Assembly: GCF_001632775.1 (NCBI RefSeq)
Contig: NZ_CP015249.1
Coordinates: forward strand, 3,390,686 to 3,454,685
DNA from: Dokdonella koreensis DS-123
GTDB taxonomy: Bacteria; Pseudomonadota; Gammaproteobacteria; Xanthomonadales; Rhodanobacteraceae
DNA length: 64,000 nt
Direction of reading: 5' to 3'
The notes under the pieces are model-generated. The model saw only the letters and a list, made by a program, of their open reading frames with translations. It did no database searches and had not been told where the DNA came from. The translations under genes and the position numbers were made by a program. Positions 42,253 to 58,932 of this stretch are shown here, piece by piece. Each line of letters opens with the position of its first letter. Positions within the stretch are counted from its first letter, which is position 1.

Positions 42253-42287
42253 CCCCGGCCCCGCCGCGGACGCGTTGGAGATAGGCC

Positions 42288-42734: not shown

Positions 42735-43663
42735 TGGAGAGCTCCCGCGACAAGCTGCGCGCCCTGGTGCTCGCGCTTGCCCTGCACCTGCTGTGCGCGC
42801 TGCTGTTGTTCGGAGGGCTTTGGTGGACGCAGGAAACACGGCCTATCGTCATGCCCGGCCCGGTGATCGAGGCCGTCCTGGTCGGTCCCACCGCTGCTCC
42901 CGCGCCCAGCGGCAGCCGGCCGAGCCCGCGACCGGCGCCGAAACCGCAGCCCCAGCCGCCGAAGCCGGAGCCGCCCGCGCCTACGCCCCCGCCGCCGGAG
43001 CCGCCCGCCGAAGCCGCGCCCGCACCGCCGCCGCCCCCGCCGGACCGGCAGGATGTGATCGAGCGCGAGCGCGTGGCCGCGCTGGCGCAGGAAAAGGCCG
43101 AGCAGGAGAAGAAGGAACAGCAAGAGCGCGTGCGCCGCGAGCAGATCCTGCTCGAAGAGCAGGAGCGCGAGCAGCAGCGCCAGCTGGAGGAAATCCGCAA
43201 GAAGCGCGAAGCGGCCGAGAAGACGCTGCGCGACGAGCAGGCCCGCATGAAGAAGCTGGAGGCCGACCGCAAGGCCGCGCAGCTGGCCGCCGACGCCGAG
43301 AAGGCCGAGAAGGCCGCACAAGCAGCGGCAGCGGCCGAACAGCGCGCGGCCCAGGCGCAGACCGGTGCCGGCGGCCAGGACAACGACCTGGCGGCGCGCT
43401 ATGCGGCCGCGATCCAGGCCGCCGTCACCTCCAGCTGGAACCGGCCCGACAGCGCGCAGGCCGGCTTGCGCTGTACGCTGCAGATCAAGCAGATCCCCGG
43501 TGGCGACGTGATCTCGGTCCAGGTCGGGACGCCCTGCAACGCCGACGCGCCGACGCGCAACTCGATCGAACAGGCCGTGATGCGCGCCGCGCCGCTGCCG
43601 TACCAGGGCTACGAGAAGGTCTTCCAGCGCCAGATCGATTTCAACTTCAGATACGAAGGATGA
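42734..43663 (+). CDS. tolA: TolA, periplasm-spanning link of the Tol-Pal system
   Basis: 309 residues. One N-terminal span (ALVLALALHLLCALLLFGGL) anchors it. A Pro-rich stretch follows (residues ~55-100), then a long Lys/Glu/Ala coiled coil (about 105-205, for example EEQEREQQRQLEEIRKKREA), and a C-terminal TolA domain with YAAAIQAAVTSSWNRPDSA and Cys residues at LRCTLQI and GTPCNA that may form the usual disulfide. It connects TolQR in the inner membrane with TolB and Pal. The first codon overlaps the tolR stop. Confidence 0.94.
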   Translation: MESSRDKLRALVLALALHLLCALLLFGGLWWTQETRPIVMPGPVIEAVLVGPTAAPAPSGSRPSPRPAPKPQPQPPKPEPPAPTPPPPEPPAEAAPAPPPPPPDRQDVIERERVAALAQEKAEQEKKEQQERVRREQILLEEQEREQQRQLEEIRKKREAAEKTLRDEQARMKKLEADRKAAQLAADAEKAEKAAQAAAAAEQRAAQAQTGAGGQDNDLAARYAAAIQAAVTSSWNRPDSAQAGLRCTLQIKQIPGGDVISVQVGTPCNADAPTRNSIEQAVMRAAPLPYQGYEKVFQRQIDFNFRYEG

Positions 43664-43673
43664 GGCACGCCCC

Positions 43674-44984
43674 ATGCGATACCGGATACTGACCTGCCTG
43701 CTGGCGATGCTCGCCCTGCTCGGCCACGCGCCGGGCGTGGCGGCCCAGGGCCTTTCGATCGACATCACCAACGGCAACCCCTCGGCCCTGCCGATCGCGG
43801 TCGTCCCGTTCGCGTTCGAAGGCGGTGGCCTGCCGCCGGAGACCGATGTCGCGGACGTGATCCGCAACGACCTGGCGCGCTCGGGCAAGTTCAATACGCT
43901 GGCCAAGGCGAACGTGGTCGAGTTCCCGGCCCGCGAAGGCGACGTCAAGTTCGCCACCTGGCGCATGCTCAAGCAGGACTATCTCGTGATCGGGCGCATC
44001 GGCGATGCCGGCGACGGTGGCCTGCGCGTCGAGTTCGAGCTGTTCGACGTGGCCAAGCAGCAGCGGATGGCCGGTGTCGCGATCAGCGGGCAACGCAGCC
44101 AGATGCGCGACGTCGCCCACCAGATCGCCGACCTGATCTACGAGAAGATCCTCGGCGTGCGCGGCGCGTTCTGGACGCGCATCGCCTACGTGACGGCCGT
44201 GGGCGTCAGCCCGAAGATCCAGTACCAGCTGATGGTCGCCGACTCCGACGGCTACAACCCGCAGGTGGTCGTGCGCTCCGGCGAGTCACTGATGTCGCCG
44301 GCCTGGGCGCCGGACGGCCGCAAGCTGGCCTACGTGTCGTTCGAGAACGGCAACTCGGCCGTCTACATCCAGGACCTGACCACCGGCCAGCGCCAGCTGA
44401 TCTCCTCGCAGCGCGGCATCAACAGCGGCCCGGCGTTCTCCCCGGACGGCAGCAAGCTGGCGCTGACGCTTTCGTTCGGCGGCAACCCGGAGATCTACGT
44501 GATCGACCTGGCCAGCCGTGCACGCACCCAGCTGACCCGGCACTTCGCGATCGACACCGAAGCGGTCTGGTCGCCGGACGGCCGCAGCATCCTGTTCACC
44601 TCGGACCGCTCGGGCAAGCCGCAGATCTACCAGGTGCCGGCGACCGGCGGAGAAGCCACCCGGCTGACGTTCCAGGGCGCCTACAACGCGCGCGCATCGG
44701 TGTGCTGTGACGGCAAATCGGTCTCAATGGTGCAGGGCAGCGGAAACGTGTATCGTATTGCCGTTTTCGATCGCGCTACCGGTCAGTACAGCCAGATCTC
44801 GCCGGGCAATCAGGACGAGTCGCCCAGTTTCGCGCCGAACGGAAGCATGATCCTGTACGCGGCCGCCGAGGGCGCACGCGGAGTTCTCTACGCCGTTTCG
44901 GCCGATGGCCGCGTCAGGCAGCGCCTGGTGCTGGCCGACGGCGACGTCCGCGAGCCCGCCTGGGGGCCGTATCGTCAGCGTTGA
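43674..44984 (+). CDS. tolB: TolB beta-propeller protein
   Basis: 436 residues. Signal peptide LTCLLAMLALLGHAPGVAAQ. The N-terminal domain (about 22-160) has IAVVPFAFEG and DVIRNDLARSGKFNTL; the six-bladed propeller shows repeated motifs SPAWAPDGRKLAYVSFENG, GPAFSPDGSKLALTLSFGG, AVWSPDGRSILFTSDRSG and SPSFAPNGSMILYAA. Periplasmic; binds Pal and is displaced by TolA. It lies 10 nt after tolA. Confidence 0.96.
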   Translation: MRYRILTCLLAMLALLGHAPGVAAQGLSIDITNGNPSALPIAVVPFAFEGGGLPPETDVADVIRNDLARSGKFNTLAKANVVEFPAREGDVKFATWRMLKQDYLVIGRIGDAGDGGLRVEFELFDVAKQQRMAGVAISGQRSQMRDVAHQIADLIYEKILGVRGAFWTRIAYVTAVGVSPKIQYQLMVADSDGYNPQVVVRSGESLMSPAWAPDGRKLAYVSFENGNSAVYIQDLTTGQRQLISSQRGINSGPAFSPDGSKLALTLSFGGNPEIYVIDLASRARTQLTRHFAIDTEAVWSPDGRSILFTSDRSGKPQIYQVPATGGEATRLTFQGAYNARASVCCDGKSVSMVQGSGNVYRIAVFDRATGQYSQISPGNQDESPSFAPNGSMILYAAAEGARGVLYAVSADGRVRQRLVLADGDVREPAWGPYRQR

Positions 44985-45000
44985 TCTAAGAAAAGCTTTT

Positions 45001-45006
45001 TATAAT
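45001..45006 (+). promoter_or_regulatory. probable -10 (TATAAT) for pal-cpoB
   Basis: TATAAT in a local AT-rich patch (AAGAAAAGCTTTTTATAATC), 80 nt before pal. TTGATC lies only 14 nt upstream, a short spacing for a -35. It would let pal be expressed apart from tolQRAB, as in many bacteria. Confidence 0.5.
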
Positions 45007-45086
45007 CTGCCGACAGGTCGTTTCCGGGCCTGATCGTCATTGTATGGTGTGAACTGTCCCAACCCGGAAAATCTCAAGGAACCCAC

Positions 45087-45599
45087 ATGAAGATCGTAGT
45101 TCGTGTCCTCGTCGCCGCCCTGCTGGTCGCCGGCATTGCGGCCTGCGCTAAGAAGACCACCACCAAGCCGGTGGAGCCCGTCGATACCACGCCGTCGACC
45201 ACCACCGCTCCGGCGGATACGTCCGGCCGCTACACGCGCGACAGTCTCGAGACCGATTCGTGCCTGCGCCAGCGCGTCGTGTACTTCGACTTCGATTCGA
45301 GCACGATCAGCTCGCAGTTCCAGGCCCAGATCGCCTGCCATGCGGCGTACCTGACCCAGTTCCCGGATGCACGCGTCACGCTGGAAGGCAACACCGACGA
45401 GCGCGGTTCGCGCGAGTACAACCTCGGCCTCGGCGAGCGCCGCGGCAACGCGGTCCAGAGCGCCCTGAGCGCTGCCGGTGCCTCGGCCGGCCAGCTGACG
45501 GTCGTCAGCTACGGCGAGGAGCGTCCGGTCGACCGCGGCCACGACGAGTCGGCCTGGTCGAAGAACCGTCGCGTCGAAATCGTCTACACCGCCAAGTAA
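45087..45599 (+). CDS. pal: peptidoglycan-associated lipoprotein Pal
   Basis: 170 residues. Lipobox VAGIAAC with the acylated Cys at about residue 20, then a Thr/Pro linker. The OmpA-like domain (about 65-170) has RVVYFDFDSSTISSQFQAQI, VTLEGNTDERGSREYNLGLG and GERRGNAVQSAL, the peptidoglycan-binding motif. Anchored in the outer membrane, it tethers it to the cell wall and binds TolB. Confidence 0.97.
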   Translation: MKIVVRVLVAALLVAGIAACAKKTTTKPVEPVDTTPSTTTAPADTSGRYTRDSLETDSCLRQRVVYFDFDSSTISSQFQAQIACHAAYLTQFPDARVTLEGNTDERGSREYNLGLGERRGNAVQSALSAAGASAGQLTVVSYGEERPVDRGHDESAWSKNRRVEIVYTAK

Positions 45600-45605
45600 G
45601 CAGCG

Positions 45606-46499
45606 ATGCAGGCCGCTCAGAACCGTCTGAAGCAGCTCGGAGCGGCGACCCTCGTGGTCGCCGCTCTGGTCGCCTTCCCCGCCCAGGCCCAGCGCCTCTC
45701 CCTGGCCGAGCGCGTCGCCGCCCTCGAAGCCAAGACCGGCGGTTCGGGCCAGGCCCAGGGCAGCGTCGAGCTGGTCAACCAGATCCAGCAGCTGCAGACC
45801 CAGGTGCAGAACCTGCAGGGCCAGATCGAGGAACTGCAGAACCAGGTCGAGCAGCTCAAGAAGAACAACCGCGACCAGTACATCGATCTCGATTCGCGAC
45901 TGGGTCGCCTCGAAGGCGGCGGCGCCGCCGCCGGTGCCGGCACGCCCCCCGCGGCCAGCACGAACAATCAACTCGAAGACGTCCAGCTCGGCGGCCAGCC
46001 GGCGCCCGCTGCGGCCGGCGCGACGGCACCCACGCCTGCCGACCTCGGCACCGCGCCGGCCATGGCCGGCACCGACCCGACGGCACCGCCGCCGGCACCG
46101 GCCGATCCGGCCGCCGAAAGCGCGGCCTACGACGCAGCGTTCTCGGCGCTCAAGAGCGGCGGATACGCCGAGGCAGAGCGTCGCTTCATCGACTTCATCG
46201 CCCAGTACCCGCAGAGCCCGCTGGTCGGCAACGCGTACTTCTGGCTCGGCCGCGCCTACTTCGTGACGCAGGACTATCCGCGCGCGCTCGACGCGTTCCA
46301 GACGCTCGTCTCGCGCTACCCGAACAATCCCAAGGCGGCTGACGGCCTGCTCAACGTCGGCAACAGCCAGTACGAGCTCAAGCAGTTGACCGAGGCGGAG
46401 GCGACCCTCAACCAGGTCGTCCAGCAGTACCCGGACACCGAAGCCTCGCGCCAGGCGACCGCCCGGCTGCGCGCGATCAAGCTCGACAGCGGCCGCTGA
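45606..46499 (+). CDS. cpoB: cell division coordinator CpoB (YbgF)
   Basis: 297 residues, starting 6 nt after pal. A signal peptide (ATLVVAALVAFPAQA) leads into an N-terminal coiled coil rich in Gln/Leu (VNQIQQLQTQVQNLQGQIEE), which trimerises in the family, then an Ala/Pro/Thr linker of about 70 residues and a TPR domain with AYDAAFSALKSGGYAEAERR, YPQSPLVGNAYFWLGRAYF and NNPKAADGLLNVGNSQYEL. It couples peptidoglycan synthesis and Tol-driven constriction. Confidence 0.95.
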   Translation: MQAAQNRLKQLGAATLVVAALVAFPAQAQRLSLAERVAALEAKTGGSGQAQGSVELVNQIQQLQTQVQNLQGQIEELQNQVEQLKKNNRDQYIDLDSRLGRLEGGGAAAGAGTPPAASTNNQLEDVQLGGQPAPAAAGATAPTPADLGTAPAMAGTDPTAPPPAPADPAAESAAYDAAFSALKSGGYAEAERRFIDFIAQYPQSPLVGNAYFWLGRAYFVTQDYPRALDAFQTLVSRYPNNPKAADGLLNVGNSQYELKQLTEAEATLNQVVQQYPDTEASRQATARLRAIKLDSGR

Positions 46500-46546
46500 G
46501 CCGGCGGCCCACGCCGCCGGAACGGTCCCCGCCCCGGAGCGGAACG

Positions 46547-47266
46547 ATGCCGATTCGGCCCTTGCCGCGTGAGCACGGCGACATCGCGACCTCGAACGCA
46601 GCGCTGATCGCGGGCAAGCCCCGTCCCGAGCGGCTGCGCATCACCGAGATCTTCCACTCGATACAGGGCGAGGCGGATGCGGCCGGCTGGCCGACGGTGT
46701 TCGTGCGTCTCACCGGCTGTCCTTTGCGCTGCACTTGGTGCGATACCGCCTACGCGTTCCACGGCGGCACCTGGTGGACCATCGACGCGATCCTGGCCGA
46801 CGTCGCGCGCCACGGCGCCCGCCACATCTGCGTGACCGGCGGCGAGCCGCTGGCCCAGAAGCGCTGCCTGATGCTGCTGACGCGCCTGTGCGACGCCGGC
46901 TACGAGGTCTCGCTGGAAACATCCGGTGCGATCGACGTCGGCGCGGTCGATGCACGCGTGCGCAAGGTGCTCGACCTCAAGGCGCCCGGCTCGGGCGAGG
47001 ATGCGCGCAACCGCTGGGACAACCTGCGCTTCCTCTCGCCCAGCGACCAGGTCAAGTTCGTGCTCGCCGGCCGCGCCGACTACGAATGGGCACGCGACGT
47101 GGTCGGGCGGCACCGGCTCGGCCAGCGCTGCATGGTGCTGTTCTCGCCGGTGCACGGTTCGCTCGATCCGCGCGACCTGGCCGAATGGATCCTTGCCGAC
47201 CGCCTCCCGGTACGGTTCCAGCTGCAATTGCACAAGATCCTGTGGGGCGAGGAGTCAGGGCATTGA
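46547..47266 (+). CDS. queE: 7-carboxy-7-deazaguanine synthase
   Basis: 239 residues. Radical SAM enzyme of queuosine biosynthesis that contracts the ring of 6-carboxytetrahydropterin. [20 protein letters not shown] precedes the cluster motif [15 protein letters not shown] (Cx3Cx2C), and [13 protein letters not shown] is the GGE SAM-binding motif. The reading starts about 28 residues before ITEIF, slightly long; internal starts cannot be excluded. The stop overlaps the queC TTG. Confidence 0.94.
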
Positions 47267-47928
47267 AACGCGCGGTCGTACTGGTTTCCGGGGGCATGGA
47301 TTCGGCCGTCACGCTGGCGCTGGCGCGCGCCGAGGGCTTCGACTGCCATGCGCTCAGCGTCGCCTACGGCCAGCGCCACAGTTCGGAGCTGGCAGCCGCA
47401 GAGCGGCTGGCGCGCGACCTCGGCGCGCACCAGCACAAGACCGTCCACGTCGACCTGCGCACGATCGGCGGCTCGGCGCTGACCGCCGACATCGACGTGC
47501 CCGAACAGGGCGGTGCGGGGATTCCGGTCACCTACGTGCCCGCGCGCAACACGATCATGTTGTCGATCGCGCTCGGCTGGGCCGAGGTACTGGGCGCCGC
47601 CGACATCTTCTGCGGCGTCAACGCCGTGGACTACTCCGGCTATCCCGACTGCCGCCCGGCCTTCATCGCCGCGTTCGAGACGCTCGCCAACCTGGCGACC
47701 AAGGCCGGCGTCGAGGGCACGCCGCTGCGCGTGCACGCCCCGCTGATCGCGCTGGGCAAGGCCGACATCGTCCGCGCAGGCCTGTGCCTCGGCGTCGACT
47801 TCGCGCAGACCGTCTCGTGCTATCAGGCCGACGCGGACGGTCGCGCCTGCGGGCACTGCGACGCCTGCCGGCTGCGCGCCGATGGGTTCGTGGCGGCCGG
47901 CGTGGCCGACCCCACCCGCTATCGCTGA
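47263..47928 (+). CDS. queC: 7-cyano-7-deazaguanine synthase
   Basis: 221 residues from a TTG at 47263 ([20 protein letters not shown]), overlapping the queE stop as TTGA; GAGGAG lies 8 nt upstream. The PP-loop SGGMDSAV binds [16 protein letters not shown] and [15 protein letters not shown] are family landmarks; the zinc site is [20 protein letters not shown]. It makes preQ0 from the QueE product. Other preQ0 or queuosine genes are not in the window. Confidence 0.95.
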
Positions 47929-48217
47929 CCGGCGCACCGGCCGACGCTTCGGCGCTGCCGGTGCCGGAAAGCGAGCGCAGCCAGGGCGTCTCGTCCCGCG
48001 CCATCCGTCGGTTCCAGCGAGCCGCCGCATCGCGAACGGCCGTTGGTGCGTTCGCGTCCATACCGCGCCAGATGCCGTTACAATAGCCGGCTTGGATGGC
48101 CCCGCCGACCGCCGCACCCCAGCGCGGCCCCCGTGCGTCGCCTCCGACTGCGACGCAGGATCGGCACCGTCCACCGGCTGCCGCCCTCCTCCAGGGACTG
48201 CGCGCAGGTCGTCTTCC

Positions 48218-48292
48218 GGGCCGTTAGCTCAGCGGTAGAGCAGTGGACTTTTAATCCATTGGTCGATGGTTCGATCCCATCACGGCCCACCA
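48218..48292 (+). tRNA. tRNA-Lys (anticodon TTT)
   Basis: 75 nt with encoded CCA. Acceptor arms GGGCCGT / ACGGCCC pair fully; D-arm TAGCTCAGCGGTAGAGCA; anticodon loop CTTTTAA (TTT); T-arm ATGGTTCGATCCCAT. The 3' 46 bases are repeated at 53967-54012, marking it as an integration site; the gene itself stays intact. Confidence 0.97.
48247..48292 (+). repeat. attachment site repeat, tRNA-proximal copy
   Basis: 46 bp from ACTTTTAATCC of the anticodon arm to the CCA end of tRNA-Lys, identical to 53967-54012. Confidence 0.92.
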
Positions 48293-48379: not shown

Positions 48380-48794
48380 GTGGCGACCATCGTCAAGACA
48401 CCTTCGGGTAGCTGGAAGGCTCTCATCCGCAAGCAGGGATGGCCGACCGTCGCGAAGACGTTTCGCACGAAACGCGATGCCGAAGACTGGTCGCGACGCA
48501 CCGAGGATTCGATGGTGCGCGGCGTCTACATCGAGCGAGCGCCGTCCGAGCGCCTCACGGTATCCGCTTCCCTCGATCGTTACTTGGCCGAAGTCACACC
48601 GATCAAGAAGCCAACGACGCAGCGCGCCGAGCAGGTGCGCGCCGAAACCTTGCGCTCGCACTTCGGCAAGTATTCGCTCGCAGCGATCACTGCCGAGATG
48701 GTCGCCACGTTCCGCGACACGCGCTTGGCGAAGGGGAAGAGCAACAGCACCGTTCGCCTCGATCTTGCCTTGCTCGGCCACCTCTTCACGACGG
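48380..48794 (+). pseudogene. tyrosine recombinase (phage-type integrase), N-terminal fragment
   Basis: About 138 codons from a GTG at 48380. The start MATIVKTPSGSWKALIRKQG followed by TFRTKRDAEDWSRRTE is the AP2-like arm-binding domain of integrases. LTVSASLDRYLAEVTP and the helical segment up to LDLALLGHLF form the SAM-like core-binding domain. The frame runs into the IS3 inverted repeat at 48795, and the catalytic domain (R..HxxR..Y) is absent from both sides of the IS. It lies 88 nt from tRNA-Lys and points away from it, as for integrases of tRNA islands. It is presumably inactive. Confidence 0.88.
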
Positions 48795-48834
48795 TGAACC
48801 TGCTCCCTGCGAACGGACGCCAAGAAGGTCGATT

Positions 48835-49718
48835 CTAGGCGGCCCGCTTCACCTTCTTGGCATAGTCGTTGGGCGACAGATAACCAAGCGCGGAGTGGAG
48901 ACGGACAGGATTGTAGAAGCCATGGATGTAGCCGGCGATGGCAGCGTGGGCTGCAGCCTTGGTGGCGTATACGCCGGTGGCTTCCTCGTTCTTGAGCGTG
49001 GCGAAGAAGCTCTCGGCCACGGCGTTGTGCCCTGAGGGCAGGCTGCGCGCTCCCAGCAGTTGCCCTTGCGGCTCATGCTCGGCACGAAGCCGTGCGCGGC
49101 CAGCGTTTTGGTGAACGCACCGCTGGCGTATTGGCTACCGCGATCTGAATGGAAGATTGCATCAGGCGGCACCGGCGAAGCCGACCAAGCATTGATGAAC
49201 GCCTGACGCACCAGATCATCGGGCATCCGTTCGGACAGGCTATAACCCAGGACTTGCCGGGTGCGCAGGTCGATCACCGCGGCCAGATATAGCCAGCCCT
49301 CGCGCGTGGGCAGATAGGTGATGTCCCCGACCCAGACTGGCAGCGGATGATCCACCGCGAACCGCCGATCCAGGTGATTGCCGACCACCGACCGACCGTG
49401 CCGGCTGTCAGTGGTGCGCAGCTTGGAGCGGCCTTTGACCTTGCCGCGCAAGCCTTCCTGGCGCATCAGCCGAGCCACGCGCTTGTGGCCCATCCTGTGG
49501 GCGCGAGCGCGTAGCGCCTGCACCAGACGCGGTCGACCGTAGGTGCCGCGACTGTCCGTGTGTAGCGAGCGCAGCTCGACCCGCAGGGCCGCCTCTGGAT
49601 CCGGTCGGCCCTGGCGATGCAGCCAGTCGTGGTAACCGGAAACCGACGCTGACAGCACGCGGCACAGCAACCGAAGCGGATAGCGAGCCCGTTCACGCGC
49701 GACGAAGGCGTACCTCAC
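48835..49718 (-). pseudogene. IS3-family transposase orfB, frameshifted
   Basis: From GTG 49718 the frame encodes the HTH_21 region (PLRLLCRVLSASVSGYHDWL, GTYGRPRLVQALRARAHRMG) and the rve/DDE integrase core (VWVGDITYLPTREGWLYLAA, DAIFHSDRGSQYASGAF). At GNCWE the expected sequence NAVAESFF is interrupted by 23 extra bases around 49030-49053. The correct C-terminal part resumes in another frame (AESFFATLKNEEATGVYATK to NDYAKKVKRAA, 48835-49020) and contains the catalytic Glu. The protein therefore loses its last catalytic residue. It overlaps orfA by four bases. Confidence 0.9.
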
Positions 49719-50008
49719 TTGGACTCCTTGGCGAAGAACGCCGTCGCTTTTTTTAGGATCTCGCGCTCCATCTTGAGCGTGGCGTTCTCGGCTCGCAGAC
49801 GAGTCAGCTCACTCTCCAGATCACTGACCGGCTGGCGGCTGGGCGAGCTCAGTTGGCGACCGGCGCGCGAGGCGTCCAGCCAGTTGCCCAACGTCTTGAC
49901 CGAGATGTCCAACTGCCGAGCCGCCTCAGACCGCCCGACCGATTCGGCTAAGGCAACGGCCTGAGTCTTGAAGTCGTCCGTGTAACGACGACGTGTGATG
50001 CGCTGCAT
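49715..50008 (-). CDS. IS3-family transposase orfA
   Basis: 97 residues. RRRYTDDFKTQAVALAESVG and ARQLDISVKTLGNWLDASRA form the HTH_Tnp_1 domain; a leucine-zipper-like region (ESELTRLRAENATLKMEREI) precedes the C-terminal LKKATAFFAKESK typical of IS3-group OrfA. A run of T's in the plus strand at 49748-49753 (AAAAAA in the message) near the orfA end is a likely slippery site for the -1 frameshift that yields the OrfAB transposase. Confidence 0.92.
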   Translation of the reverse strand: MQRITRRRYTDDFKTQAVALAESVGRSEAARQLDISVKTLGNWLDASRAGRQLSSPSRQPVSDLESELTRLRAENATLKMEREILKKATAFFAKESK

Positions 50009-50052
50009 AGGAACCTCCAGGTTGCGATCAATCTATCGCTTCCTGGCGTCCG

Positions 50053-50082
50053 TTCCGACGGGGCAGGTTCAGCCCGTATAAT
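50053..50082 (+). promoter_or_regulatory. hybrid promoter at the IS right end
   Basis: TATAAT at 50077-50082, six bases outside the IS, with a weak TTCCGA (50053-50058) inside the inverted repeat at 18-nt spacing. It would start transcription near 50089 and give a ~24-nt leader to the gene at 50113. Confidence 0.55.
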
Positions 50083-50112
50083 ATGCAGGCAAACGGCCAA
50101 CAGGGGCTACGG

Positions 50113-51558
50113 ATGCTGGTATCTCGCCACTTCAAATTAGAACGCAATCAGGCAACGCTCGATTTTCTCGACGTCCATATTGATAAGGACATTCCTATCT
50201 TCGTTGATCCGGCCGCACTGCGCTCTCTGAAAACAGAGTGGGGGCATCATTGTGTATCGCTGTTGCAGAGCTATTTCGAGTCAGTGCTAACTGCGATACG
50301 GAATGGAAAGCATGACAGAGCAAAGGAGCTTCTCGCGTGCCTCAACGAGCGAAACGAGTTCCATATAGGCTACTCAAAGAACAAGTCGCGCGGCAGCGCT
50401 CTTGGTGCGGTATCAGCTGAGAAAATTTGGGAATCTCTCGTTAAAAGCAAAGCTGCGCAAACGGGTGTTGTGCATGACCTTGAGGACACGATCTTATTTG
50501 TTGATGGGGTTGGCCCCGACATGCTGTCAGATGCAGTCTGCAACATCATTCGTGGCCCACTGATTCAGTACACGCAGCAAGCGTGCAGTTACTACGGCAT
50601 ACCGCTGACTGCCGGGGTTGATTCTGGGCCTGTATGGAACACACGTGATGAGAAATGGGAAAACAGTCTTATTGACTTACCCATGACGAAGCAAGGCCCT
50701 CTTATCCTCATTCCAAAGATTATTGCGCGTGTTAAGCAAATCTACGGACATGACGAATACTATCGCCACTTTCTGATGCCTGTGCTGCAACAGCATCACA
50801 AGGATATCAACTCGTCACTTGTTCACGTTCTACAGAGCAAGAAGAACAAAGGCGTCAAGAAGGTCTATAAGACTGATCTCTATGACCTGTACGGTGCTAA
50901 CAAGCTCGCCTCCGCCAAGTTAACCGGCGAGCATCCACAAGCCCTCACTAACTACAGAGAGACAAAGAACGCTACTCCATCGCGCCCGCTTGGCCATTCT
51001 GCTCTTGCGGAACTGGAAAATATACCGACACCAAATTTTGCTGGGCTATTAAACGACGTAACATCCCTCAAGTCAGGTCAGAAAGATGCAGCGACCTATG
51101 AGAACGCAATCGAGAAATTTCTATCCGCCTTACTCTATCCCGCCCTTGCCTTTCCGGTGAAGCAAGACAAAATTCACGAAGGAAGGAAGCGCATCGACAT
51201 TACTTATGTAAATGACGCCAAGGATGGGTTTTTTAGCTGGGCCTCAAGGAATCACCCCGCCTCCCATATTTTCGTTGAATGCAAAAATTACGGGAAGGAG
51301 GTTGGAAACCCTGAAATCGATCAACTCGCTGGTCGATTCTCCCCTTCTCGAGGGAAGCTCGGCATCCTCGTAGTCAGATCCATCGATGACAAAGCTCTGC
51401 TGCTGAAGCGGTGCAAAGATACAGCCAACGATCAACGCGGTTTCATTCTCGTACTGGATGACGCCGATCTTGGCGAGTTGATCAAGCAACGGCAAGCACT
51501 CATGTACGGGTACGGGGAGACCTTGCTATACCAGCAGTTCAAAGCTCTAGTCTCATGA
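50113..51558 (+). CDS. unrecognised island protein with PD-(D/E)XK nuclease signature
   Basis: 481 residues. ATG 50113 is preferred because AGGGG lies 6 nt before it; the in-frame ATG at 50083 directly abuts the -10 box. Residues 1-~340 match no family I know: they start LVSRHFKLERNQATLDFLDV, with HIDKDIPIFVDPAALRSLKT and a mixed alpha/beta region rich in Lys and Asn. Residues ~345-430 contain KRIDITY (Asp 362) and HIFVECKNYGKEVGNPEIDQ (Glu 389, Lys 391), then LGILVVRS. This D...ExK order is the PD-(D/E)XK core of Mrr-like restriction endonucleases. There is no signal peptide or methylase partner. GC content is far below that of the neighbours, so it was acquired. A DNA-targeting defence role is inference. 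Confidence 0.75.
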   Translation: MLVSRHFKLERNQATLDFLDVHIDKDIPIFVDPAALRSLKTEWGHHCVSLLQSYFESVLTAIRNGKHDRAKELLACLNERNEFHIGYSKNKSRGSALGAVSAEKIWESLVKSKAAQTGVVHDLEDTILFVDGVGPDMLSDAVCNIIRGPLIQYTQQACSYYGIPLTAGVDSGPVWNTRDEKWENSLIDLPMTKQGPLILIPKIIARVKQIYGHDEYYRHFLMPVLQQHHKDINSSLVHVLQSKKNKGVKKVYKTDLYDLYGANKLASAKLTGEHPQALTNYRETKNATPSRPLGHSALAELENIPTPNFAGLLNDVTSLKSGQKDAATYENAIEKFLSALLYPALAFPVKQDKIHEGRKRIDITYVNDAKDGFFSWASRNHPASHIFVECKNYGKEVGNPEIDQLAGRFSPSRGKLGILVVRSIDDKALLLKRCKDTANDQRGFILVLDDADLGELIKQRQALMYGYGETLLYQQFKALVS

Positions 51559-51799
51559 AGGAGTCGTCCGACGCCGAGGATGATCGCCCTGCGTTGTGAT
51601 GGGCTGCTTGGCACACCAAGCTAGGTGGGATCCTGTTGATACTCGGTGTCGGCTACGGCGTCCGTGGGTGGTGCCGGCGATGACATCCGAAGTCGTACAC
51701 ATCGCAGTGCTTTGTCCGTGCTGCGTTTCCGGATTCAAAGAGCACGACAGGCTTGAGCTTCGCAACGCAACGAGCAAGCATCTAGTCGCCGAGGAAATC
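51559..51799. other. non-coding spacer in the island
   Basis: Between the nuclease-like gene and the toxin-antitoxin remnant. No supported ORF, hairpin terminator or repeat was seen; probably decayed sequence. Confidence 0.4.
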
Positions 51800-52037
51800 T
51801 CAAACGGCAAGCTCGTAGGGCGCGAAGCGAACGCTGTATGTCACGTTGCCGACACGCGGCGGACTTAGCCAGGTTGGCGCGTACTTGGCTCGGTGTCAGG
51901 GCGCGGCTGCCATCTGCGGCCAACGCTTTCGCGGCCGGCACAACGTGCTCGCGGAGCCAAGCATCGACGGCGTGGCCGCAAGTATCCAATTCATCGTGAA
52001 CGGCGTTCTGTTCGACCACTTTGCGCTCATCAACCAC
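51800..52037 (-). pseudogene. remnant of a type II toxin-antitoxin pair
   Basis: On the minus strand an open stretch encodes VHDELDTCGHAVDAWLREHV followed by VPAAKALAADGSRALTPSQV and RANLAK. This is the C-terminal pattern of small antitoxins (EHVxPAxxALxADPSRALxxxQVRxxLA), but the frame then runs on without the expected stop. In another frame a GTG at 51844 opens VTYSVRFAPYELAV and stops at 51800; VxYxVRFxP is the usual start of RelE/ParE toxins. So an antitoxin with a damaged end and a 14-codon toxin stub remain. Both readings come from general family knowledge, and no functional product is expected. Confidence 0.45.
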
Positions 52038-52088: not shown

Positions 52089-52595
52089 TTAAAGTGCCCC
52101 AAGCCGGAGCTCTGTACGTTTGCGGACCAGCCAATCATCCCTAAAGTTATCCGGGAGGTTTTGAGTCAGGCGCGCATTAATGACCCTGCACATCGCATCG
52201 AGAGACACGAGTCGATCGAGCCAGTTCACTTGATGCGCGAATCGCACGACACCCATGTCCGGACTGTTCAATAGCCACGCGTCCTCGATTGTGGCTGCCC
52301 AGATTAGGAGGTCGCGCTCGCCTTCATCCAGACCCACTGATTGGTGGGTCAAGGTGAATTCGAGGCGCTGCTCGTCGGTCACGGTACCAATCAATTCCAG
52401 TCTCTCGCGGAGCCACGCTTCGTTGATAGTCCGCTCAGGTCTACGGCGCTGCCGTCCTCTCTGGGTTTCGACAATGACCTCTTCGACCGTGCAAACACGA
52501 AATCCATCGAGAAGCTGAGGAAGGCATCCACTGTCGTGCGCGGCAATGATGACGTTGGTATCAACAAGAACGCGTTGACCTCTCTGCAGGGGCAT
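52089..52595 (-). CDS. PIN-domain protein (putative ribonuclease toxin/effector)
   Basis: 168 residues. RVLVDTNVIIAAHDSGCLPQ gives the first PIN Asp; CTVEEVIVETQRG the first Glu; GLDEGERDLLIWAA the middle Glu/Asp; DAWLLNSPDMGVVRFAHQ the last Asp. All acidic positions for two metals appear present, so it is probably active on RNA. AAGGGG lies 7 nt before the ATG, between it and the stop of the upstream XRE/M78 gene (11 nt gap), so the two are one operon. Most VapC-type toxins are shorter (~130 residues); this one has a C-terminal extension (DNFRDDWLVRKRTELRLG). Its probable partner is the XRE/M78 protein. Confidence 0.82.
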   Translation of the reverse strand: MPLQRGQRVLVDTNVIIAAHDSGCLPQLLDGFRVCTVEEVIVETQRGRQRRRPERTINEAWLRERLELIGTVTDEQRLEFTLTHQSVGLDEGERDLLIWAATIEDAWLLNSPDMGVVRFAHQVNWLDRLVSLDAMCRVINARLTQNLPDNFRDDWLVRKRTELRLGAL

Positions 52596-52606
52596 GATGC
52601 AGCCCC

Positions 52607-53713
52607 TTACATATCGAACGGCGTCTTCAAGCCGTGTTCCGTGAAGAGTTCCGCTAAGCCATCAATGGACTCGTCGACGATCTCGGAGGCCCGGCGCACC
52701 GTTACATAGCCTTGTTCGATGCCCCAGCCGAGCGCTTCGACGAATCGACGACTGAAATGCGGCGGCGGAACATTCTCACTTGCCACTCGGATCGCGGCAG
52801 ACTCCAGACGCTTGGCCGTGGCTTGTGCAATGTGCTTCAAGCACGCGAGTCGCCAACGCATGGCGTCGCCGCTCACCAAAAACACGCTTGCGGCCGTCCG
52901 TACCCATTCGTTTAGATCAGCGATGAGACGGGGCAGAGGATGATCGTCGATATACTTCTGCAGCGACTCGGAAGGCATCAGCAGGCCTGCGGCAAAGTTA
53001 TCCGCCAAGCTTTCGATGCGCCTGTAGCGCGCCGAGAGCTGCACGTCCCCTTCGATATGTTTAGGCTCCATCAACGACCAAGTGATGAGGTGGAACACCT
53101 CATGTGCCAAGTCGAAGTTCCGGCGCCCCTCGGATTCACGGCGATTAATAATGACGGTGTTCATGGCGCCGACTTGGCACGCCGCGCCGGACACCCCCTG
53201 CAGAGCATCCACATAAAGTACGAGCGTGTCCCAGCGTTCTTCCAGAGCATCAGCAAGCATAGCTGCTGGCACTGGGCCAAGTTCCAAGCTGCGGGCGATC
53301 GCTTCACCCGCGGCCCATGCCTCTTCGTACGAGCTCTTTGGGGTAAGTCCGATCTGCGTCAACGACGAGTTGATCGAGTCGCCTTTAAGGCGGCTCAGAT
53401 GCCGATAGGTGGCGATCCAGCCACCCGCACGCTCCTCGAACATGTTTAAATTTTCGCCAACCTCCATGGTCCTCCGCCAGGAAAACTTGGCCTCACCGGC
53501 TAGGCGTAGCGGATCCGTGAAGTAATCAGGCTTAACGCCGAAAAACTGCGCTGCTTTGACCAGCTCTGGAATCGATATTGACCGCCCACCGCCTTCGATT
53601 TCCGAGAGGGTCTGGCGGTCATTGAATTGGAGCGCGGTCGCCAACTGCTCTTGCGTTGCACCGCGAATTTCACGCAGGGCGACCAGGCGCTTACGGATAG
53701 TGGCTTGATCCAT
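52607..53713 (-). CDS. XRE-family regulator with ImmA/IrrE-type (M78) metallopeptidase domain
   Basis: 368 residues; AGGGAG lies 5 nt before the ATG. Residues 1-65 are a Cro/C1-type HTH (IRKRLVALREIRGATQEQLA, NDRQTLSEIEGGGRSISIPE). Residues ~180-290 are a peptidase M78 domain with FDLAHEVFHLITW (HExxH zinc motif) and RIESLADNFAAGLLMPSESL supplying the downstream Glu/Asp. The C-terminal part (RFVEALGWGIEQGYVTVRRA) is helical. Related COG2856 proteins cleave or sense repressors in phage and mobile-element regulation, and some act in toxin-antitoxin-like pairs. Its promoter carries an inverted repeat, so autoregulation is likely. It is the first gene of the operon with the PIN gene. Confidence 0.9.
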   Translation of the reverse strand: MDQATIRKRLVALREIRGATQEQLATALQFNDRQTLSEIEGGGRSISIPELVKAAQFFGVKPDYFTDPLRLAGEAKFSWRRTMEVGENLNMFEERAGGWIATYRHLSRLKGDSINSSLTQIGLTPKSSYEEAWAAGEAIARSLELGPVPAAMLADALEERWDTLVLYVDALQGVSGAACQVGAMNTVIINRRESEGRRNFDLAHEVFHLITWSLMEPKHIEGDVQLSARYRRIESLADNFAAGLLMPSESLQKYIDDHPLPRLIADLNEWVRTAASVFLVSGDAMRWRLACLKHIAQATAKRLESAAIRVASENVPPPHFSRRFVEALGWGIEQGYVTVRRASEIVDESIDGLAELFTEHGLKTPFDM

Positions 53714-53966: not shown

Positions 53967-54012
53967 ACTTTTAATCCATTGGTCGATGGTTCGATCCCAT
54001 CACGGCCCACCA
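53967..54012 (+). repeat. attachment site repeat, distal copy
   Basis: Identical 46-bp copy of the tRNA-Lys 3' half (ACTTTTAATCC to CCACCA); it lacks the 5' half, so it is not a second tRNA gene. Confidence 0.92.
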
Positions 54013-54154
54013 TCTCTCCTCGTCGATCCGGATGGCCCCTGCCGGGCTCGCCAGCGGCACCAGGCGTGCCCATCGCCTCGGCCGAGCCGCTGACGAGAAG
54101 CTCACCTCCCGGCGGGCAAGGCCCCTCCCGACGCGGTCATCGCCCCCCGTGGCC

Positions 54155-54184
54155 AAAAAAATGCCCCTCGAAGGGGCATTTTTT
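54155..54184. terminator. bidirectional intrinsic terminator
   Basis: AAAAAAATGCCCCT, loop CGA, AGGGGCATTTTTT. A-tract and T-tract flank a GC stem, so it can stop transcription from both sides. It serves the minus-strand subtilisin gene ending at 54283. Confidence 0.88.
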
Positions 54185-54282
54185 ACGGCGCGGCCCCGAC
54201 CAGGGATGCCGCGCCATGCTCGAAGCCTCGGATACCAGGCCGGCGGTCGTTTCCGGCGGTCCCCAACCTCCGGCCAGCGGCC

Positions 54283-56901
54283 TCATTTGCCGCCGGCCGC
54301 TTCCTCGAAGTCGTCCGCGAAGATCCCGTCGCTGGAGATGGCCACGCAATCGGAAAGCGCGCCCTCGACGTCGTTGCGGACGCCGCGCAGCTTGTAGGCG
54401 TAGCGCACGCCGGGTTGCGCACGTGCGTCGACCAGCGGCGAGGCCGCGCTGCTGGCGACGAGATGGAAATCACCCGGCGCCGCGTCCAGGCAGGTGCCGT
54501 CGGCGCGGTAGAGCTGGAAGCCCTCGGCGTCGGCGGCGCCGGTGAAGCCGATGCCGATGCCCTGGCCACCGCCGTCGACTTCGACCAGCGCGGTCGGTGC
54601 CGGCAGCGGCGTCGGATCGGGCATGGCGAACCCACCGGACACCGCCAGCGCATAGCCCTGGCGGTCGCTGCCGTCACTGCCGTTGCCCGGTACGGCGGTC
54701 GCCTTGACGCGGAACGTATAGCTGCCGGCGACCGGGGTCGTCAGGCGGACCTGCTCCACGGTGTCCTTCGCGTCGGCGCTGCCACCCGGCGTCGAATCGG
54801 CACCGGGGATCCGGTTGGCGCCGAGCAGGAGCGCACCGTCCGGCGCGACCACCTCCAGATCGAGGTTGTTGACCAGGGTCGAGGCGGCGCCGGGCACGGC
54901 CTCGGCGTCGAACCACACGAGCGTCGCGCGCAGCTCGATGCCGGCGGCGACATTCGCGATCGTGTAGGTGTGGACGTCGCCGGTCTCCAGGCCGGTGGGG
55001 TTGGTCCGCTCGAACAGGCGCAGGCGGCGGCTGTCGTCGCCGCCGGACAGCGTGTCCTTGAACCACAGGTTGCCGTCGAGCCAGGCGCGCCCCCAGCCGG
55101 TCGCGTCGTTCGGCCAGAGGTGGCCGTCGGCCTCGGACGTCAGCGCATGGGTGCCGTTCAACAACACGGCTTTCAACATGGCACCGGTCGGATGCAGGGC
55201 ATCGGCGGCGGTTCGCTCGCCGCGCGGATAGAAGCCGTCGGTAAAGAACTGGCGCAGCAGCACCGCATTGCCGGCCAGCGTCGGTGTCGCCATCGACGTG
55301 CCCGAGAGACTGCGCGTCTGCGGCGCGCTGATCGTATCGGTGACGCTGCTGCCGACCACGCGGGCCGAGACGATGCTGGAGCCCGGCGCCGCGATGTCCG
55401 GCTTGGCGCGGCCGTCGGCGGCCGGGCCCCTGTTCGAGTAGCTCGCGTGCTGGGTGCTGCCGGCGTGGCCGAGTGCGGCGACGGTGAGCGCGCTCTTGGC
55501 ATTGCCGGGCGAGCCGGTCTGGGTCGGGCCGGACATGTCGTTGCCGGCCGCGACGATCACCAGCAAGCCTTCGTTGCGGCGGCTGACCTCGTCGACCGAG
55601 GCATCGTTACCGTTGTACTGCCCTCCCGTCGATGCGCCCCAGCTGTTGCTGTGTACGCGCGCGCCACCGGCATAGGCCTGCTCCAGCGTTCCCTGGAAGT
55701 CCACGATGACGGGGCTGTTGTTGTTGCCGTTGTCCTGGAACAGCAGCTGCGCATTCGGCGCCATGCCATCGGCCAGGTCGTGGTTCGGCAGCAACGGTGT
55801 CGACGCCAGGTACGTGTTCGCGCCGAACGTGCCGTGCACGTCGCCGACCACGGTGGCGGTCACATGCGTGCCGTGACCGATGGTGAAGTCGTAGTCGACC
55901 GCACCCGGCTGGGTCCAGTAGGCGATGATCTTGTTGTCCGGGTGCAGCGTGCCGATGGTCGGCAATGCCGGACGCTCGGCATAGGTGACCTCGGTATGCG
56001 GGCCGGTGCCCTTGTCGAGCGTGGCGAACCAGGCCGCGTTCGGCGTCGTGCCGGAATCGGCCACGGCGACGATCTGGCCGCTGCCGGTCAGGCCGTGATC
56101 CCAGATCGGCGTCGGCCCGCAGACCACGCCGGTGCCGATGCACTCGGTCATCGCATTGCCCTGGATCGCGCCGACCGAGCCGCTGTTCGCCCACTGCGGC
56201 GCGATCCACGGTGCCACGTAGCTGACGCCGTCGATCGCGGTCGCCGCGCGCAGCAGCGCGTCCAGCTGGCCCGCATCGACCTCGGCGCGCACGTACGGCG
56301 CCGCCTCGGCGCGCACGCTGCGCTCGGTGATCGTCACGCCGGGAACGGCCTGGCGCAGCGCCTCGGCCATCGGTGCGGACGGCACCCCGGCAAAGGCATG
56401 CACGATGATCTCGTAGCGGCCGTTGTCCCGGCGCGCGGTCGAATCGACACGCCGGGCGGTCCACAGTTGCGGGTCGAGTTTCATCGCCGGCTGCAGCGGG
56501 CCGGCCCAGCGCACGCCCGGATGGGCGTTCAGTTCATCCAGGCCGTGACCGTCGAGGCGCACGTAGTAGGCGTTGTTCGGCAGGTAGCCGAGGAACCGGA
56601 TGCCCTGTGCCGCCAACGCCTTGCGCGCGTCGAGACGGCCGGCTTCGAACTGCACGATCGCGTAGGCGGTGGGTCCTGCCGCCGCCGCGCCGACCGTGGC
56701 CGCATCGAGCTGCTGCGCGGCGGGATCGAAGATGCCGGCCTGCAGGATCAGCAGGGCCGGGTTCGTCCGCGCGGTCTCGATCGCGGTGAGCATGGGCGGT
56801 TCGGCCACGATCGTCGAGGACGCGGCGTGAACAGCCGGCACGCCAGCCAGTGCAAGGACGAGCGCAGCCGCGAGCGCGGTGCGCGATGGCAATGTGGGCA
56901 T
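54283..56901 (-). CDS. secreted subtilisin-like serine protease (S8) with C-terminal IFADDFE tail
   Basis: 872 residues from ATG 56901; AGGAG lies 8 nt upstream. Signal peptide LAAALVLALAGVPAVHA. A long pro-region (about 30-245) is followed by the S8 domain: VAVADSGTT (Asp), FTIGHGTHVTATVVG (His), VIVAAGNDMSG (oxyanion Asn) and LSGTSMATPTLAGNAVLLRQ (Ser), with an intact triad. Then comes a P-domain/jelly-roll-like module (TYTIANVAAGIELRATLVWF, NNLDLEVVAPDGALLLG), as in Kp43-type proteases, and a fibronectin-III-like stretch (PAPTALVEVDGGGQGIGIGF). The end, DGIFADDFEEAAGGK, is the shared tail. It is exported and probably degrades external protein. The ~490-bp region upstream may hold a structured leader. 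Confidence 0.92.
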   Translation of the reverse strand: MPTLPSRTALAAALVLALAGVPAVHAASSTIVAEPPMLTAIETARTNPALLILQAGIFDPAAQQLDAATVGAAAAGPTAYAIVQFEAGRLDARKALAAQGIRFLGYLPNNAYYVRLDGHGLDELNAHPGVRWAGPLQPAMKLDPQLWTARRVDSTARRDNGRYEIIVHAFAGVPSAPMAEALRQAVPGVTITERSVRAEAAPYVRAEVDAGQLDALLRAATAIDGVSYVAPWIAPQWANSGSVGAIQGNAMTECIGTGVVCGPTPIWDHGLTGSGQIVAVADSGTTPNAAWFATLDKGTGPHTEVTYAERPALPTIGTLHPDNKIIAYWTQPGAVDYDFTIGHGTHVTATVVGDVHGTFGANTYLASTPLLPNHDLADGMAPNAQLLFQDNGNNNSPVIVDFQGTLEQAYAGGARVHSNSWGASTGGQYNGNDASVDEVSRRNEGLLVIVAAGNDMSGPTQTGSPGNAKSALTVAALGHAGSTQHASYSNRGPAADGRAKPDIAAPGSSIVSARVVGSSVTDTISAPQTRSLSGTSMATPTLAGNAVLLRQFFTDGFYPRGERTAADALHPTGAMLKAVLLNGTHALTSEADGHLWPNDATGWGRAWLDGNLWFKDTLSGGDDSRRLRLFERTNPTGLETGDVHTYTIANVAAGIELRATLVWFDAEAVPGAASTLVNNLDLEVVAPDGALLLGANRIPGADSTPGGSADAKDTVEQVRLTTPVAGSYTFRVKATAVPGNGSDGSDRQGYALAVSGGFAMPDPTPLPAPTALVEVDGGGQGIGIGFTGAADAEGFQLYRADGTCLDAAPGDFHLVASSAASPLVDARAQPGVRYAYKLRGVRNDVEGALSDCVAISSDGIFADDFEEAAGGK

Positions 56902-57394
56902 GAAACACACTCCTGGAAATGATGGATCGGCCACAGACGATTCGGCCGCTGACGGAAGGGTCCACGCCGCGCGATCCTGGCGCGGCCGGCGTATCGAGAC
57001 TGTCGGCAGGAACAGTCAGGAAGGCGCCTGGAAACAACAAGCGTCGCCCGAAGGCCTTCGGCCAGGGCGAGGCATACCCCGCCGTTCCAGCCCGCCAACA
57101 CAGGGCTTCCCCAAGCGATCCGCCGTTCGGCGACAGGTTGTATTGCGAGCCCGGGCGGTGTCGCAACGCCCCTCGCGACAGCCCTCGGAGACTTTGGCGA
57201 CGCAGACTATGCCTTTCGTCGGGAGGCGTCACCTGAACAAATCCGGGAAATGATTCAGCCGGCAAGCCGGGGATCGTCGACGGCCCGATGCAGCACCGCG
57301 ACCGCTGGCCAGGCTGCCCATCCGGCCAGCAGCCGCGCCTTGCCGGACCACCGCGCCGGGGCCTTCGCACTCACCTCAACGTCCATGGCATGCG
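56902..57394 (-). other. long leader/intergenic region with potential RNA structure
   Basis: No ORF is supported here. On the minus strand two hairpins lie side by side about 260-330 nt before the protease start: GACGC/GCGTC (57226-57230 with 57199-57203) and GTCGC/GCGAC with an outer GGGC/GCCC (57175-57179 with 57160-57164). They are joined by GCCAAAGTCTCCGAG. It could be a riboswitch-like leader; see findings. Confidence 0.35.
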
Positions 57395-58165
57395 CTAGAA
57401 GTTCCAGATCACCGAGGCCAGCCAGCGCGAGCGCACCGGGCGGCCGTCGACATCCCACCAGTAGCGCGGTGCCGTGGCGTCCGTCCAGACGTAGGCCAAG
57501 TACAGGTCGACATCGTCGATGCCGTAGCTCAACCCGGTGCTGATGTAGCCGTAGTCGTGATCGCCGCTGTGCGAAAGTGCGGCGTAGCCCACGCCGAAGT
57601 CGGCGGCGAGACGCTCGACGATCGGCTGGCGGAAGGTCGCTTCGGTCCAGGTCGCGACGCCGCTGCGTTCGTAGCGGCTCCTGGCATAGACCGACGTACG
57701 GTTCGGCGTCAGCGCCAGGCTCAGGCTCCAGCGGCCGCGGTAGCCGATCGCGGCGCTGATCTCGTCGTAGCGCAACTGGTTGCGCCAGAAGCTCCAGGGT
57801 TCATCGTAGTGCGCGACGCCGAGCCTGGCGGACCAGTCCGCATCGATCTGCCAATGACGATCGACGCGCAGCACGACCTGCTCCATCGCCGAGTCCTGTT
57901 CCGGACGCCGTTCGCCGATGGCGCCGCTGGCGCCGAGGCCGAGGGTCCATTCGGTGCCGATCGGGTAGCGCAGGTCCACCAGCCAGGCCGGCCGGTCGCT
58001 GCTGAGGCTGAGGCCGCGATAGAGGTTGTCGCTGGCCAGGGCGAGCGAGCCGTTCCAGCCCTGCGCCTGGGCCCGAACCGATGCCAGCACGCCGCAGGCC
58101 GCACACAGGACGGCCGGCCATACCGGCAGGACGCCGCAAGGGCGCCGCATCGTGCCCACCGCCAT
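57395..58165 (-). CDS. TorF-family putative outer-membrane porin
   Basis: 256 residues from ATG 58165; the Met at 58150 (MRRPCG) is another possible start. Signal peptide: VWPAVLCAACGVLASVRAQA. The mature part starts GWNGSLALASDNLYRGLSLS, the hallmark opening of the TIGR02001/TorF putative porin family (SxxLxSDYxFRGxSxS), and continues as alternating amphipathic strands with a final LASVIWNF whose terminal Phe is typical of BAM substrates. Outer-membrane beta-barrel; the transported solute is unknown. A longer in-frame reading to 58267 lacks leader features. Confidence 0.85.
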   Translation of the reverse strand: MAVGTMRRPCGVLPVWPAVLCAACGVLASVRAQAQGWNGSLALASDNLYRGLSLSSDRPAWLVDLRYPIGTEWTLGLGASGAIGERRPEQDSAMEQVVLRVDRHWQIDADWSARLGVAHYDEPWSFWRNQLRYDEISAAIGYRGRWSLSLALTPNRTSVYARSRYERSGVATWTEATFRQPIVERLAADFGVGYAALSHSGDHDYGYISTGLSYGIDDVDLYLAYVWTDATAPRYWWDVDGRPVRSRWLASVIWNF

Positions 58166-58316
58166 GCCGATCCCCCTGCACCCCGGAAAGGCCAATGCTA
58201 GCGGTTCCGGGGCGATGTCCGGGGTGCCGCGGGCGGAATCGAGGTATTCCACAACCTTCCGGCTCACTCGTGGTACATACGGCTAAGACCCTGACTCGAT
58301 GGCTGGAGGCTTGAAC

Positions 58317-58928
58317 GTGCCGCGCGAAGGCCGCCCCGATACCGAGCCCTGCGTGGAAGGCGGCAAGGATCCCGCCACCTGCGACCTCCAATGGCTGCGC
58401 CGCGCCGGCCAGGGCGATCGTGCCGCTTTCGAGCGGCTGTACCTTCACCATTATGACCGGCTCGCACGCTTCGTGGCACGGCACACGGCGCGGCGCGACC
58501 TGGTCGACGAGATCGTGAACGAGACGATGTGGGTGGTCTGGCGCGACGCGAACCAGTTCCGCGGCGAGGCCAAGGTCGCGACCTGGATCTTCGGCATCGC
58601 CTATCGCTGCCTGATGAAGACGCTGCGCGACCGGCCCGGCGTGCCGGAATCGACCACCGCCCAGGCCGAAGGCACGAGCGACGACGCCGAGCAGGTCGAG
58701 CTGAGCGACTGGGTGCGCCGCGGCCTGCTCGCGCTGCCGACCGAGCAGCGGATGACGCTGGAACTGGCCTACTACCTCGGCCAGTCCTGCGAGGAGATCG
58801 CCGCGATCATGGACGTCGCCGTCGGCACCGTGAAGGCGCGCCTGTTCCACGCGCGCCTGCGTCTGCGCAATACACTGCCGGCGCTCGGCGGCGAGGATTC
58901 ACCCCATGCGCATGCGGCGCGAGGATGA
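58317..58928 (+). CDS. ECF-family RNA polymerase sigma factor
   Basis: 203 residues from GTG 58317, which has GGAGG 7 nt upstream; ATG 58299 is the alternative but has no such site. Region 2: AFERLYLHHYDRLARFVARH, VDEIVNETMWVVWRDANQFR, KVATWIFGIAYRCLMKTLRD. Region 4: LALPTEQRMTLELAYYLGQS, CEEIAAIMDVAVGTVKARLF. It is the first gene of an operon with an anti-sigma factor (4 nt downstream) and a subtilisin. An AACCTT at 58253-58258 may belong to an autoregulated ECF promoter, but the -10 is unclear. Confidence 0.94.
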   Translation: MPREGRPDTEPCVEGGKDPATCDLQWLRRAGQGDRAAFERLYLHHYDRLARFVARHTARRDLVDEIVNETMWVVWRDANQFRGEAKVATWIFGIAYRCLMKTLRDRPGVPESTTAQAEGTSDDAEQVELSDWVRRGLLALPTEQRMTLELAYYLGQSCEEIAAIMDVAVGTVKARLFHARLRLRNTLPALGGEDSPHAHAARG

Positions 58929-58932
58929 CCCG

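Follow-up and report, generated by a model that had tools for sequence, protein, structure and literature searches.

The window analysed here is a stretch of 64,000 nucleotides of Dokdonella koreensis DS-123 (contig NZ_CP015249.1, positions 3,390,686 to 3,454,685 of the forward strand). The gene under study lies at 50113..51558 on the plus strand and encodes a protein of 481 amino acids (aa), which consists of an N-terminal domain (N-domain) and a C-terminal domain predicted to be a nuclease of the PD-(D/E)XK superfamily. It is cargo of a mobile island and has no partner in the window. The protein is best explained, with a probability of roughly 0.6, as a single-protein restriction-type defence factor. 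The gene and its parts are listed below, with residues numbered in the 481-aa form:

50113..51558, plus strand: gene under study, N-domain plus PD-(D/E)XK protein, 481 aa (open reading frame calling, homologue alignment, library matches, structure prediction)
50113..51012, plus strand: N-domain, about residues 1-300 (homologue rows, profile alignment, structure prediction)
51031..51555, plus strand: predicted C-terminal nuclease domain, FokI/BspD6I-like, residues 307-481 (structure prediction, fold and profile comparison)
51196..51198, plus strand: codon of D362, invariant in 65/65 aligned homologues
51277..51285, plus strand: codons of E389-x-K391, invariant in 65/65 aligned homologues

The longest open reading frame called by the program spans 50083-51558 (491 aa). 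The start at 50113 is preferred over that at 50083, because the motif ACAGGGG precedes this ATG in five of the six sequences compared (the sixth, locus L005, has ACATGGGG) and because the homologues at L003-L005 begin with the methionine corresponding to it. The resulting frame is intact, and the start and length given in a preliminary description of this DNA are thereby borne out.

Structure prediction of the protein is confident (predicted local distance difference test score, pLDDT, 89; predicted template modelling score, pTM, 0.88) and shows the alpha-beta core carrying D...(E/D)xK by which the PD-(D/E)XK superfamily is defined. All 65 aligned homologues, with identities as low as 33%, keep D362, E389 and K391, which is far above chance. 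The Pfam family Mrr_cat (PF04471) matches around its gathering score of 21, with 19.7 bits by hmmscan and 22 bits in the genome search, and in hhalign comparison it scores 30.9 against a control maximum of 18.0. The C-terminal domain almost certainly adopts the PD-(D/E)XK fold, as judged from the predicted model and the alignments, and the three residues, already singled out in the preliminary description, would form the active site of a predicted metal-dependent DNA endonuclease. The fold is shared with the cleavage domains of FokI and Nt.BspD6I, at 8-12% identity.

The N-domain is conserved as well. D26, E79, G86, G94, D136, D140 and P201 are kept in all 23 rows compared, D32 and S139 in 22 and P33 in 21, while several N-domain residues are invariant among the 65 aligned members. 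No relatives in solved structures are evident in the whole-protein fold-match list, which barely tests the N-domain. Homologous N-domains occur in other arrangements. In the A5 subgroup (hhalign E 6.5e-32, columns 14-307) the N-domain is joined to another nuclease type, GPxDxK...ExK, ending near SASK; here the C-terminal sequence differs, and the single local profile alignment obtained stops before the nuclease domain. The N-domain occurs also in PDC-M36A proper, a PADLOC-DB candidate, whose nuclease part is related to that of the window protein. The PDC-M36A nuclease was considered as a third nuclease kind and rejected; only two C-terminal kinds are claimed, because a match to model PDLC04598 ties this nuclease to that of the window protein. 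Nine plasmid regions, chosen by the author from 38 records, contain one N-domain with a nuclease, one nuclease behind a different N-terminus and seven N-domain-only genes (283-345 aa). An ImmA/IrrE gene lies near three of these seven, a count that carries no comparison against chance. At L226:7104-8561, on a Paenibacillus plasmid, the same Mrr/FokI-like C-terminal domain as in the window protein (39% identity) is fused to an apparently unrelated N-terminus. The seven N-domain-only plasmid proteins, all annotated as hypothetical, are:

L192:4983-5897, L193:5010-5957, L224:3980-4924 and L225:4013-4957
L232:942-1793, L233:6019-6930 and L234:5986-7023

Among Pfam families the window protein matches by hmmscan only Mrr_cat, below its cut-off, and one further family at chance level; the 65 members match, at E <= 0.01, only Mrr_cat (11 members) and DUF29 (one member, E 0.0056). 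NCBIfam gives no match for the window protein, and a search of PDB sequences with the single protein gives none at E <= 1. The A2 profile retrieved 13 PDB chains, all at E >= 0.12 (Na,K-ATPase beta subunits, bS20, AvrLm4-7), which were taken as chance. Two other libraries do contain the family. The PHROGs v4 family phrog_27295, whose function is unannotated, matches at E 2.7e-153 over residues 11-471 of the 491-aa form; it is the same family near its whole length, and no difference was seen. The PADLOC-DB models of PDC-M36A match the N-domain (PDLC04597, 5.3e-50, residues 13-252 of the 491-aa form) and the nuclease part (PDLC04598, 1.7e-19, residues 318-466). The statement that the first ~340 residues match no family is thus right for accepted Pfam families but not for PDC-M36A and phrog_27295, which cover the N-terminal part. 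Likewise, "candidate new" was too strong a label, as the family is already present as a candidate relative in PADLOC-DB and as a family of unknown function in PHROGs. The preliminary description had named two outcomes that would speak against the proposal, a structure prediction devoid of a nuclease fold and homology to a characterised non-defence family; both were sought, and neither was encountered.

The window protein and PDC-M36A clearly share an ancestor, both parts of the protein being homologous and recognised by the A-subunit models. PDC-M36A proper and the window protein share 23-25% identity. The closest model members (L010/L227, L191 and the viral contig L216) differ in having two small conserved genes downstream. 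By tblastn at E <= 0.01, these two partners are found only in L191, L010/L227 and L216 among the loci compared and not in the window; membership in the PDC-M36 system, in which "M" presumably stands for multi-gene, was rejected for their absence in a test that did not include PADLOC's own rule. The small genes (120-142 aa) lie after PDC-M36A proper at L191:7368-8113 and L227:3212-4020, with similar stretches in L216. A literature search for the name PDC-M36 found no paper.

The layout of the protein is, by analogy, most like that of FokI, MspJI or Shedu, with membership in none of them established. The N-domains of FokI and Nt.BspD6I have no demonstrated kinship to that of the window protein, and the cognate methylase that adjoins the nuclease in FokI-like type IIS systems was not found in the island. 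MspJI and AspBHI, which are modification-dependent, and Mrr have modified-base recognition domains, and such domains were not detected in the window protein. Shedu is characterised by an SduA-type nuclease and an N-terminal clamp for DNA ends; no SduA model is among the PADLOC matches, and the fold similarity to Shedu is weaker than that to FokI.

A scan of named genomes yielded 120 confirmed relatives, of which 80 were kept, and viral contigs yielded 11, two of them partial. The closest relative found is from Stenotrophomonas maltophilia D457 (86%). Within the bacterial family of the source strain, the protein query matches 9/147 genomes, the source genome included, four only weakly; four other genomes carry a near full-length protein at 71-79% identity. 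The nine other genomes of the genus gave no match to the protein query, INPHARED phages gave none, and E. coli genomes gave no match at the DNA level. The PDC-M36A model matches 18/398 genomes of the phylum, again including the source genome. In a tree of 65 members, Bacteroidota form a single group, as do Acidobacteriota; Bacillota and Pseudomonadota account for two and five label changes, respectively, and the Saccharibacteria and Geobacter members stand inside a mainly proteobacterial half. Such a tree is compatible with some transfer between phyla but does not prove it.

Clustering of the neighbours within seven genes of the relatives' loci revealed no constant partner gene. Minus-strand loci such as L012, L015, L025 and L031 were left out of one early locus analysis. 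Several individual settings point to defence. In P2-like prophages, the gene comes after those for the portal and the terminase at L113 and L115, whose proteins are identical, and at L114, whose protein is distinct with 78 differing residues; the assignment was made by PHROGs for L113 and by similarity to L113 for the other two. L113 and L115 also encode a type IIG enzyme in this stretch. According to Rousset and co-workers, the cos-side interval from gpA to the portal gene gpQ is a defence hotspot of E. coli P2-like phages (PMC9122126). At L079, a hsdR-like gene, hsdM and hsdS are followed 72 bp on by the gene, on the same strand, and in genome G363 the distance from the gene is 110 bp to a hsdS fragment and about 1.5 kb to hsdM. 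It is a recognised pattern that type I loci harbour embedded defence genes (PMC12255303). A second frame in G363, L229:2383-5060 on the minus strand, lies between the gene and hsdM and is Mrr-like by eye; this type I locus may therefore hold two candidate nucleases.

Nine of ten hand-picked neighbours match PADLOC, including BrxHI and PglZ (L085), GajA and GajB (L103) and a type IIG enzyme (L105), while the hand-picked neighbour L085:2207-4024 has no match. One hundred neighbours, drawn at random from 276 of >= 300 aa within 5 kb at 75 loci of L035-L112, matched 137 PADLOC model families against 38 for 94 proteins from random places (1e-15), a comparison that counts families rather than proteins and sets a test set from many phyla against a control from the window's phylum only (94 of 102 proteins, drawn from 140). 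Many of the control matches are to helicase models (GajB, DpdF) and to SspA/DndA, the latter also seen in the test set; in the control they were taken for housekeeping relatives. For linkage to restriction-modification genes, the author picked 41 of the 80 named loci, mainly ones on long contigs, and assessed these together with G363. This sample includes L058, L085 and L103, whose neighbours had already been seen, and G363, which was added after its hsdM neighbour was noticed; neighbours are missing at some loci close to the end of a contig, reading frames were called greedily by length, and ResIII helicase matches were not used in the statistics. With G363 included, hsdS lies within 2 kb at 2/9 loci (0.015 expected) and N6_Mtase within 10 kb at 3/48 (0.26 expected).

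The island of 5.7 kb is bounded by tRNA-Lys and a 46-bp repeat. Its features are:

48218..48292, plus strand: tRNA-Lys (ttt), attachment gene of the island (ARAGORN)
48247..48292, plus strand: left attachment repeat, 46 bp, 3' end of tRNA-Lys, 100% identical to 53967-54012
48380..48838, plus strand: integrase-like gene, N-terminal remnant cut by the insertion sequence (IS) element (sub-threshold Pfam integrase N-terminal matches only; Int_N E 0.0062)
48795..50071, minus strand: IS3-type insertion sequence (HTH_Tnp_1, rve, HTH_21; two transposase frames, 49715-50008 and 48849-49718)
52089..52595, minus strand: PIN-domain-like protein, island cargo (Pfam PIN E 0.0041, below cut-off)
52607..53713, minus strand: HTH and ImmA/IrrE protein, island cargo (Pfam HTH_3 4.6e-09, Peptidase_M78 1.9e-08)
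53967..54012, plus strand: right attachment repeat, perfect 46-bp copy of the tRNA-Lys 3' end, with an empty site in one sister genome

The sister genome G086 has an S8 protease gene within 200 bp after the tRNA, and since this gene flanks the island in the window, G086 shows the empty site (one of seven sister regions read). The other six have the tRNA and lack the S8 protease flank, so that an empty site is not shown there. The GC content is 0.49-0.51 over 50000-51499, compared to 0.65-0.73 (42000-47999) and 0.66-0.73 (54000-59999), and the remaining island has values between those of the gene and the chromosomal flanks. Both the low GC and the placement in a tRNA island noted in the preliminary description are thus upheld. 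A tRNA scan of 60 loci found no constant tRNA site. The element that interrupts the integrase-like gene, which we take to be of IS3 type from its combination of domains, has 33-bp inverted ends (85% complementary) and a second near full-length copy elsewhere in the genome (93% identical). A Pfam scan of six island proteins (nuclease, integrase remnant, two IS transposase frames, PIN, HTH-ImmA) found no methylase. The nuclease gene is indeed alone on its strand without a methylase, as first described, but two further cargo genes occupy the other strand. The HTH-ImmA/IrrE protein is best matched in PADLOC by capP (6.5e-18), followed by RmrA (3.2e-16), and together with the PIN-like protein (52089-53713, minus strand) it looks like a regulatory pair, either of the toxin-antitoxin type or similar to CapP/RmrA. 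The PIN-like protein is probably not part of the nuclease's system.

In the proposed mechanism, the FokI/BspD6I-fold domain (about residues 307-481) would cut DNA with D362, E389 and K391 as active site. The N-domain (about residues 1-300) would recognise a mark of incoming DNA or of infection and license cleavage, a role suggested by the FokI-like two-domain layout, the invariant acidic residues and the recombination of N-domain and nuclease among relatives. Because the search of the island turned up no methylase, host DNA would be spared by a need for a foreign feature. This feature may be a modified base, on which MspJI and AspBHI depend, or, as with Shedu, the ends or the structure of the DNA. 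The substrate would be the DNA of the invader, and the outcome the cutting of phage or plasmid DNA.

A defence role of the protein family is likely, supported as it is by the genomic context of the relatives; direct restriction is only somewhat favoured as the mode over abortive infection, both having been raised in the preliminary description. In abortive infection the N-domain would sense infection, or itself make or read a signal, and the nuclease would degrade host and phage DNA indiscriminately so that the cell dies, which we consider rather unlikely. A repair nuclease or an island or plasmid maintenance factor is improbable, given the patchy distribution (9/147 genomes of the bacterial family, none of the nine others of the genus) and the positions next to the portal in P2-like prophages and inside type I loci. 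Several observations nevertheless weigh against a restriction-type defence factor. In L113, gpA was not observed beyond the gene, on the side away from the portal, and in L116, also a P2-like prophage, the gene lies near baseplate genes and not at the portal. If G363 is left out, a single locus remains for the hsdS linkage (1/8, Poisson p 0.012) and N6_Mtase stands at 2/46 (p 0.025); no linkage is seen for C5 methylases (0/33 loci within 10 kb against 0.16 expected), and 39/42 genomes have none of the three restriction-modification markers within 10 kb. A pure recognition role of the N-domain is not assured either, as N-domains without a nuclease occur in 7/9 plasmid regions. It is conceivable, if doubtful, that the N-domain constitutes an immune module of a new kind, with its own fold and its own active or ligand site (acidic D26, D32, E79, D136 and D140; S139 and P201), coupled to at least two C-terminal nuclease kinds and acting alone on plasmids as an immune or plasmid-competition protein.

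Expression in the Dokdonella koreensis strain is uncertain, because the IS3-type element ends at 50071, 41 bp upstream of the start codon, a scan of 49900-51800 found no promoter-like site (1.3 expected by chance), and the TATAAT at 50077 has no good -35. The family may thus be defensive while the gene is an inactive passenger in the source strain, its promoter removed by the IS insertion; this is compatible with a single-protein restriction-type defence factor but has a low probability. The intact frame with all conserved residues and the ACAGGGG motif before the ATG argue against it, and the TATAAT could serve together with an outward signal of the IS.

The family is a solo-gene family over many phyla that joins a well-predicted FokI-type nuclease to an N-domain without an accepted Pfam family. 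Should the protein indeed restrict phage without a methylase, the target of the N-domain would reveal another way of discriminating foreign from self DNA. Since this N-domain is also found alone and joined to a different nuclease, a single assay could account at once for several unnamed genes of plasmids, prophages and islands.
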